Below are positions 17,996-19,309 of a DNA stretch of 32,029 nucleotides, piece after piece. Below the pieces are notes generated by a model. That model searched no databases, was not told the DNA's origin, and saw nothing but the letters and a program-made list of their open reading frames with translations. The stretch spans positions 1 to 32,029 of the forward strand of contig MNYZ01000115.1 in NCBI GenBank assembly GCA_001873365.1, given 5' to 3'. Position numbers and translations under genes: made by a program. This stretch comes from Oscillatoriales cyanobacterium CG2_30_40_61. Its GTDB lineage: Bacteria > Cyanobacteriota > Cyanobacteriia > Cyanobacteriales > Microcoleaceae. The first letter of the stretch is position 1; every line of letters begins with the position of its first letter.

Positions 17996-18460
17996 GAAAT
18001 GCGCTTTGCAGCCACGGCCAGAAATGGGGAAACCGTACAAACCGGACGAGAAACCACGGGCTCCCGCAAAGCATACGAAGACCTGACAAATCTCGATCAC
18101 CAGGTTCATAGTGCGGCGGGGCGGGCGGTTAACTCCCTAGCCCTTCCCCCGGTGAAAGGGAATGTTTATACCGTTGTCATTGACCCTATTTTGTCGGGTT
18201 TATTTGTCCATGAAGCCTTCGGTCATTTGTCTGAAGCGGATATGACATAACAAAATCCCGACTTATTATAAGTCATGACCTTGATCCGTCAATTTGGCCC
18301 AAAAAATCTACAAATCTTTGATGGTGCAGCCCCTGGCGGACATCGGGGAAGCTATAAATATGATGATCAAGGAACTCCGGCGACTACCACCCAACTGATC
18401 CAAGATGGGGCTTTAGTAGGTCGCCTTCATTCCCGTGAAACCGCAGGAAAATTAGGGGAA
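17996..18460 (+). pseudogene. tldD: tldD (TldD/PmbA metalloprotease) internal fragment
   Basis: The frame reads MRFAATARNGETVQTGRE, LPPVKGNVYTVVIDPILSGLF, then the zinc motif HEAFGH (18209-18226), all typical of TldD. After LSEADMT come two in-frame stops (TAA at 18248-18250 and 18269-18271). The same frame then continues with FGPKNLQIFDGAAPGGHRGSY, YDDQGTPATTTQLIQDG and VGRLHSRETAGKLGE before homology ends. About 155 of some 480-490 residues remain, and both ends are missing. Since the stops replace Tyr- and Glu-like positions in one frame, decay was by substitution. A functional copy may lie elsewhere. Confidence 0.88.
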
Positions 18461-18497
18461 ATTCCTAATGTCGTTGTCGGAGGAGAAGCAATAGAAT

Positions 18498-18533
18498 AAA
18501 AAAACCACAACCAGATTAATTTATTTTAATCTG
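18498..18533 (-). terminator. Possible terminator of the RGDGR peptide gene
   Basis: Reading leftward, CAGATTAA/TTAATCTG arms (18512-18519 and 18526-18533) with a 6-nt loop are followed eight bases later by seven T residues (18498-18504). It lies just beyond the stop of the gene at 18537. The gap before the T-run makes it a weak example. Confidence 0.4.
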
Positions 18534-18536
18534 TGA

Positions 18537-18773
18537 TTAGTTTTCCCGTCGTCCATCACCACGTTTAGGAGCAATATCCTCGGTATTTTCATCGTCGTAG
18601 TTGTGATTGGCAATTTCTATTTGATCCGAGTTCAGAGACACAAGGAATTCTCTGGACTCGAAGGACTGCATTTCTTGTGAATCACCCTGTTGTGTTGTTT
18701 GAGGTTGAGGATCAAAACTCTGAGGTAAACCCACCAGAGGAAGGATGATTAAGACTGTAAGCAGGTTAAACAT
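18537..18773 (-). CDS. Small exported-type protein ending RGDGR-REN, PatX-like paralog
   Basis: With the ATG at 18771-18773 the protein has 78 residues: a hydrophobic N-terminus (FNLLTVLIILPLVGLP) like a signal peptide, an acidic Gln/Asp-rich middle, and a C-terminal IAPKRGDGRREN. An in-frame ATG at 18858-18860 would add 29 polar residues before the hydrophobic part, so the shorter start is preferred. The layout matches the upstream neighbour that ends IPHRGSGR, with Asp replacing Ser in the pentapeptide. It may be a second peptide of the PatX/PatS type or a decoy or antagonist (inference). It lacks a strong ribosome site. Confidence 0.55.
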   Translation of the reverse strand: MFNLLTVLIILPLVGLPQSFDPQPQTTQQGDSQEMQSFESREFLVSLNSDQIEIANHNYDDENTEDIAPKRGDGRREN

Positions 18774-18902
18774 TTTAAGTTCAGAGATTAGGATAACTAC
18801 CTGTGAATACCAGTGTTTTAATTCCTGATCCGGATCGTTAATTAAATCCTGATCGATCATCCCCTGATCAAATATAAAAAAAATGGAGTAAGTGTCAGAT
18901 AC

Positions 18903-18968: not shown

Positions 18969-19148
18969 TTAACGTCCACTTCCCCGATGAGGAATGCCTT
19001 GATTATCAATTTCTGTACTGGTTTGAGTCGCAATAAACGCCACTTTTTCTGCTTTTGAAACTGAGGTAAAGTTAACAGGATTAAGATGTTGACGAGTCAT
19101 GGCAGCGACTAACAAAGTAGATAATAAAATAGTGCTGTAGATTCGCAT
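18969..19148 (-). CDS. patX: PatX-like small protein with C-terminal RGSGR
   Basis: Starting at the ATG 19146-19148 the protein has 59 residues: a short Arg-bearing n-region and hydrophobic core (MRIYSTILLSTLLVAAM), a polar middle, and the C-terminus GIPHRGSGR. RGSGR is the pentapeptide of PatS, HetN and PatX that binds HetR and controls patterning in filamentous cyanobacteria. PatX proteins with an N-terminal hydrophobic segment occur also in non-heterocystous filaments. An ATG at 19173-19175 would add nine residues but lies inside an inverted repeat that overlaps a promoter-like element. The name is assigned from architecture and the exact pentapeptide, and hetR is not in view. Confidence 0.72.
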   Translation of the reverse strand: MRIYSTILLSTLLVAAMTRQHLNPVNFTSVSKAEKVAFIATQTSTEIDNQGIPHRGSGR

Positions 19149-19159
19149 AAGAGTTGTCC

Positions 19160-19185
19160 GTATTAGAGTGTCCATTCTCTAATAC
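19160..19185 (-). promoter_or_regulatory. Perfect inverted repeat at the patX-like gene start
   Basis: GTATTAGAG (19160-19168) and CTCTAATAC (19177-19185) are a perfect 9-bp inverted repeat with an 8-nt spacer. A third half-site, CTCTAATA, lies at 19245-19252. On the minus strand the distal arm contains TTGTATTAG, a possible -10, which would put the transcript start within the repeat and favour translation from 19148. This is the geometry of an operator; a HetR site is a tempting guess but not shown. Confidence 0.5.
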
Positions 19186-19309
19186 AAGTTGAATCAAATT
19201 GATCCGGTAAAAAAGATAAACTTTTCCGGGATTGCTTTTGATTCCTCTAATAGTGTTAAATTAAAGGGATAAATCTTGTGATTAGGAATTGGGTAAGCGA
19301 TCGCTAGTT

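Follow-up and report, generated by a model that had tools for sequence, protein, structure and literature searches.

A PatX-type peptide gene ending in RGSGR and two altered paralogues in a Planktothrix genome

Introduction

The PatX family of small proteins was reportedly named by Elhai and Khudyakov in 2018, and its genes are said to carry a DIF1-type element within 69 nt upstream. In Nostoc PCC 7120, the exported PatX precursor is matured by PatP and the resulting hexapeptide HRGTGR is reported to bind HetR at 88 nM, with export and PatP both needed (PMC12756182). PatS and HetN also contain RGSGR and are HetR ligands according to the literature, and cytoplasmic cleavage of their precursors is described as probable (PMC12756182). 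PatX is described as well for the non-heterocystous filament Leptolyngbya BL0902, which is without nif; there a DIF1 promoter is predicted, and hetR lies immediately downstream of patX (PMC11298460). The role of HetR and PatX in filaments without heterocysts is called a mystery in the same source (PMC11298460), and a role outside heterocyst patterning has been proposed by Khudyakov 2020 (PMC7761841) and also appears in Xu 2025 (PMC12756182).

Here we analysed a window of 32,029 nucleotides, contig C108 of the 4.8-Mb, 99% complete genome of Oscillatoriales cyanobacterium CG2_30_40_61, which contains a gene that we call patX-A. It resembles the PatX family (NF047413) in that its precursor is short, begins with a hydrophobic segment and has RGSGR at the C-terminus, and in the presence of hetR in the genome; the hexamer close upstream is DIF1-like, one base away from TCCGGA. 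It differs in lying far from hetR, in ending exactly at RGSGR, and in having a tandem partner, patX-C, and a paralogue with a changed pentapeptide, patX-B. Compared with the Nostoc protein, patX-A shares the hexapeptide form H-R-G-[S/T]-G-R and the predicted export of the precursor, but has Ser in place of Thr and comes from a genome without nifD. Unlike the arrangement in Leptolyngbya BL0902, patX-A, patX-B and hetR are found on three different contigs. PatX in non-heterocystous filaments is already published, so patX-A adds one more gene to an established family.

Results

The frame ending in RGSGR belongs to the PatX family

The sequence-only reading had described a 59-residue frame ending in GIPHRGSGR as a PatX candidate, and its coordinates, strand and sequence are all correct (Table 1). 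Read from 19148 to 18969 on the minus strand, the frame translates to MRIYSTILLSTLLVAAMTRQHLNPVNFTSVSKAEKVAFIATQTSTEIDNQGIPHRGSGR followed by a stop codon (59 aa, ATG at 19148). The signal-like hydrophobic N-terminus claimed for it is borne out by a 12-residue hydropathy maximum of 2.27 and an N-region charge of +1. We rejected an in-frame ATG at 19175, which would give 68 aa: the codon is Ile in one Planktothrix (L004), position 1 of the PatX profile falls on 19148 in a six-frame search, and the ATG lies upstream of the inferred transcript start.

Table 1. Coordinates of the patX genes and their putative promoter elements in the window
Feature	Coordinates	Strand	Description
patX-A	18969..19148	-	59-aa PatX with hydrophobic N-terminus and C-terminal HRGSGR; stop codon 18969-18971
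DIF1-like hexamer ACCGGA	19203..19208	-	ends 54 nt before the patX-A ATG; aligned in 9/9 Planktothrix
TATTAG, possible -10 element	19179..19184	-	18 nt after the DIF1-like hexamer; conserved in the alignment
patX-C	18537..18773	-	78-aa PatX-like small protein, C-terminus APKRGDGRREN; directly downstream of patX-A
exact DIF1 TCCGGA	18829..18834	-	ends 55 nt before the patX-C ATG

The patX-A protein matches the curated NCBIfam model NF047413 (heterocyst_PatX) from end to end with 36.4 bits (cut-off 30), while a Pfam search of the protein and a search of a plasmid collection each returned no match. Together with the DIF1-like element and a full-length hetR in the genome, this match upholds the PatX identity, and sequence comparison has confirmed 18969-19148 as a genuine PatX.

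The frame and its RGSGR terminus are conserved in relatives of the same genus. Specifically, patX-A was found in nine of the ten Planktothrix genomes searched (eight from the first genome set plus G315) and was not among the matches in the tenth, G316, which is 73% complete; all nine copies read end in HRGSGR. The codons of this hexapeptide show synonymous differences only (CAT/CAC, CGG/AGG/CGA, GGA/GGC, AGT/AGC), which points to purifying selection on the peptide. The spacer is variable among the nine, and the whole-gene pairwise dN/dS ranges from 0.20 to 0.99; with HRGSGR invariant, the constraint on patX-A is therefore concentrated at the ends. Among named genomes, relatives occur in P. paucivesiculata PCC 9631 (90% identity), P. 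rubescens PCC7821 and Planktothrix sp. PCC 11201 (both 76%) and an Oscillatoriales bin (59%); these four overlap genomes G315, G126, G239 and G140 and were not counted twice.

The shortness of patX-A might raise the suspicion of a random open frame with RGSGR at its end by coincidence, and a degenerate DNA pattern for the terminus was no commoner genome-wide than its reversed control (8 versus 11 matches). However, patX-A is the only one of these eight matches that reads RG[S/T]GR directly before a stop codon, and the family model match, the conservation in nine congeners, the synonymous-only motif changes and the promoter motif all speak against chance. The earlier judgement that the terminus is not accidental thus holds; chance, which we rate as practically negligible, is refuted by the conservation seen in these comparisons.

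Putative promoter elements upstream of patX-A

DIF1 is given as TCCGGA at -35 in Anabaena (PMC7377430). The hexamer upstream of patX-A departs from it in the first base, a mismatch that weighs against the DIF1 reading, and keeps its distance from the ATG in all nine Planktothrix. From the position of TATTAG, the patX-A transcript would be predicted to start near 19171. Among 251 control ORFs of at least 120 aa taken from 58 related loci, among which 8 pairs overlap in sequence, NCCGGA or TCC[G/T]GA occurs 50-60 nt upstream in two, and the looser NCC[C/G/T]GA in nine.

Two DIF1-promoter patterns were searched across the genome. The first gave six matches, versus none for the reversed control; four of them are inside long ORFs, and L205 and L207 have no same-strand ORF of at least 40 aa starting nearby, so this search provides no evidence for further genes. 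The second gave two matches, versus three in the control, one being patX-C and the other lying inside a 434-aa ORF.

Two further observations concern these upstream regions. A perfect 9-bp inverted repeat, GTATTAGAG-8 nt-CTCTAATAC (z -3.6), spans 19160-19185 on the minus strand of the window and overlaps the inferred -10 element and transcript start of patX-A; four of the eight remaining Planktothrix show a single mismatch in it. In one genus, all 26 genomes read have TCCTGA at the DIF1 position of patX-B (e.g. L164, L189-L199), 52-54 nt ahead of the start codon, whereas 16 of the 21 patX-A genes parsed from that genus carry CCCTGA there; these hexamers are class-specific variants of the predicted DIF1 element.

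HetR, nitrogenase and the distribution of PatX

The HetR partner implied by a PatX gene is present: one full-length hetR was found in the genome, encoding 300 aa, with 580 bits against NF009718 (cut-off 489) and 153.8 bits against HetR_C. This HetR keeps the six tested peptide-binding residues R223, E253, E254, D256, D270 and D278. As reported by Hu 2015, both Arg residues of the PatS hexapeptide (PatS6) bond with Glu253, Asp270 and Asp278 of HetR, while its Ser bonds with Glu253 and its N-terminus with Glu254 and Asp256 (PMC4649674); the substitution R223W is reported to abolish PatS binding (PMC7476756). As a separate observation, residue 254, said to hold the N-terminus of the peptide (PMC4649674), is Thr instead of Glu in all 25 in-register HetR proteins of one genus (L114, L115, L118 and others); the HetR of G264 is out of register and not included in this count.

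nifD, the only nitrogen-fixation marker tested, is absent from the genome, the sole match having 40 bits versus a cut-off of 653. The suggestion of the sequence-only reading that the peptide acts outside heterocyst patterning fits this absence, while the idea itself had already been published.

The order was surveyed in 291 genomes: 128 gave a PatX match at E <= 0.01, 164 a HetR_C match and 118 both. PatX scored above the curated cut-off in 111 of the 291 (picked by E-value, in agreement with the profile-search tally), and 109 of these 111 also have HetR_C, the exceptions being G008 and G144. Conversely, 55 of the 164 genomes with HetR_C lack a PatX above the cut-off, a number that may include profile misses. 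A published survey gives the same kind of picture (PMC12756182).

A proposed role for patX-A

We consider it probable that patX-A encodes an exported short PatX precursor that holds off HetR locally, that it is expressed from a DIF1-type promoter, and that the process controlled is likely filament growth or breakage. This reading is built on the family membership, the conservation, the promoter motif, a hetR with the tested residues, the lack of nifD and the paralogues, all observed here, whereas for export, processing, transport and HetR inhibition we infer by analogy. Specifically, a DIF1-type promoter would drive transcription of patX-A, whose product would be a short exported precursor as in Nostoc; it would be trimmed outside the cytosol to an HRGSGR-like peptide acting on HetR, by analogy with the Nostoc system (PMC12756182). 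In this way HetR would be restrained locally in a filament in which no nitrogenase was detected, and its target process in Planktothrix would probably be filament growth or breakage and not heterocysts. Of the three PatX-type genes, patX-A alone retains the HetR-binding peptide; the peptides of patX-B and patX-C are altered.

Export was further considered through a simple test for [small]-x-Ala signal-peptidase sites, whose outcome weighs against export and cleavage. No site was found in three of the nine Planktothrix patX-A proteins (G075, G140, G190), in three more the sole candidates are LLA or LVA within the hydrophobic core, and among the 30 patX-A proteins of other genera two have no site. 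With such sites missing or buried in the core, the precursor may stay anchored in the membrane until a protease frees its end.

Alternatively, the product of patX-A could act through a target other than HetR, for which RGSGR would be kept. In the non-heterocystous Leptolyngbya BL0902, deletions are reported to give PatX effects on transcription basically independent of HetR, and in two gene groups the strain lacking both patX and hetR looked like the patX deletion rather than the hetR deletion (PMC11298460); HetR inhibition may therefore not hold outside heterocyst formers. The HetR_C genomes in which no PatX reaches the cut-off also indicate that the two are not strictly coupled, although some PatX genes may have escaped the profile. 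Against another target stand the near-complete co-occurrence of PatX with HetR_C, the intact set of six HetR residues and the exact HetR-binding pentapeptide in patX-A, and we consider this alternative unlikely.

A tandem partner of patX-A with an altered terminus

The genome holds three PatX-type genes, whose pentapeptides read RGSGR (patX-A), RGGGR (patX-B) and RGDGR (patX-C). The product of patX-C has a hydrophobic N-terminus; the gene, like patX-B, was absent from the sequence-only reading. It scores 19.9 bits against NF047413, below the cut-off of 30, and has no RG[S/T]GR, the terminus reading RGDGR here and PGDGR in three of nine Planktothrix. Comparison by hhalign gave a probability of 90.8% versus patX-A and 94.0% versus patX-B, values that the shared hydrophobic N-terminus may inflate.

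When the patX-A loci were parsed with wider patterns (39 of 42, the exceptions G200, G292 and G297 not being of type A), patX-C was found behind patX-A in 21 of the 39: 9/9 Planktothrix, 3/3 of a sister genus (QGCGRR or KGCGRR) and 9/27 of another genus (PGCSRR). In all nine Planktothrix the gene has exactly 78 codons without indels and an invariant GDGRR, preceded by Arg in six and Pro in three. The 12 C genes read in two other genera carry GCGRR or GCSRR, with the first Arg missing in all 12. TCCGGA stands 53-55 nt before the patX-C ATG in 9/9 Planktothrix, within surrounding DNA that has diverged; the sister genus has CCCGGA at 54-55 nt in 3/3, and the third genus has TCCGGA in five of nine (G092, G255, G306, G302, G301) and no TCCGGA in G001, G179, G209 and G264. 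A patX-C profile search of the 291 genomes gave matches at E < 0.01 in ten genomes (eight Planktothrix and two from a single sister genus); of the 79 genomes with any match, the remaining 69 have weaker ones only, some of which (G092, G255) are C genes adjoining patX-A.

Based on these termini, we expect patX-C not to bind HetR, because the Asp replacing Ser would face Glu253 and because the first Arg is missing in 15 of the 21 copies. Its export is less sure in Planktothrix, since the N-terminus is without positive charge. A literature search on RGDGR found no paper.

Convergent to patX-C, the window holds remnants of a tldD-type metallopeptidase gene at 17999-18499 (+), in two short frames; the domain match spans positions 3-103 of 220 and has two internal stops. 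A second tldD-type match in the genome (G000:C52) lies in an uninterrupted 216-aa frame and extends over positions 4-220, and several relatives keep a long tldD frame at the place of the remnant.

patX-B and its separation from hetR

patX-B, on contig C114, is a full PatX (47.2 bits) and reads EPDRGGGRRDF. Among ten Planktothrix, its pentapeptide is RGGGR in eight, RGEGR in one and RGSGR in one. In two other genera, patX-B lies 0.5 to 2.8 kb from hetR in all 27 stretches that hold both, some of which were chosen because the match lay near hetR, and each stretch has RG[S/T]GR in at least one patX-B copy. Two further sister-genus genomes place patX-B about 5 kb (G234) and 17 kb (G056) from hetR. 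On the 5.46-Mb contig of Planktothrix G126, the distance is 871 kb, and the 11-12 kb around hetR in three Planktothrix contain no gene of this type. The linkage between patX-B and hetR is gone in Planktothrix.

Both patX-A and patX-B were read in 37 related genomes; patX-A was not read in G304 and G316, nor patX-B in G309 and G310, and RGSGR genes near hetR in G200, G250, G153, G281 and G297 were not classed as either. RG[S/T]GR is lost from patX-A in five of the 37 (RGGGR once, RGEGR three times, PGDGR once) and from patX-B in eight, all Planktothrix, while loss from both was seen in 0/37, which is not significant (Fisher p = 0.56, genomes related). The pattern would be expected if one HetR ligand must remain, but proves nothing.

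Decay or diversification of the paralogues

The functions of patX-B and patX-C are putative, and both genes could be decaying, functionless duplicates, with patX-A alone of consequence. Such decay would be in line with the loss of RGSGR from patX-B in nine of ten Planktothrix and with the loss of the first Arg from patX-C in three of nine Planktothrix and in all 12 copies of the two other genera; the dN/dS of patX-C, moderately low in most pairs, reaches 1.93 in one. On the other side, the 78 indel-free codons and the invariant GDGRR of patX-C, and a DIF1 motif held at a fixed distance in diverged upstream DNA, are features that pseudogenes are not expected to keep. Taking both genes together, we regard decay as possible, if somewhat doubtful.

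A more speculative reading, and in our view a rather unlikely one, is that Planktothrix and its relatives export a small set of peptides under DIF1 control, one of them holding the HetR key RGSGR and the others changed keys (RGGGR, RGEGR, [R/P]GDGRR, GCSRRD). If true, the changed peptides would compete for processing and transport or act there as decoys, or else would address a second receptor, and in filaments without heterocysts an ancestral HetR signal would have given rise to a peptide code. The genome offers a comparison within one cell, with three related precursors, one an intact HetR ligand by its motif and two altered, all with DIF1-type upstream elements. In the literature on PatX and HetR that our searches returned, we found no mention of the tandem patX-C, its DIF1 element or the changed patX-B pentapeptide of Planktothrix. 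Literature searches on patX with two copies or Microcoleus, on HetR with necridia and on Planktothrix with hetR brought up nothing about multiple PatX; the 2018 paper that reportedly named PatX may describe multiple patX genes.

Additional PatX-type loci

Two tandem patX-B genes lie near hetR in L118 (G260), L119 (G288), L121 (G179), L180 (G166) and L165 (G001), and in two of these genomes, G260 and G288, the hetR-proximal copy carries an altered pentapeptide (KGDGR, SGSGR). Additionally, a PatX-like small frame at L187 (G292:C48) contains two RGSGR motifs, one within SRGSGRRF and one in a terminal HRGSGR.
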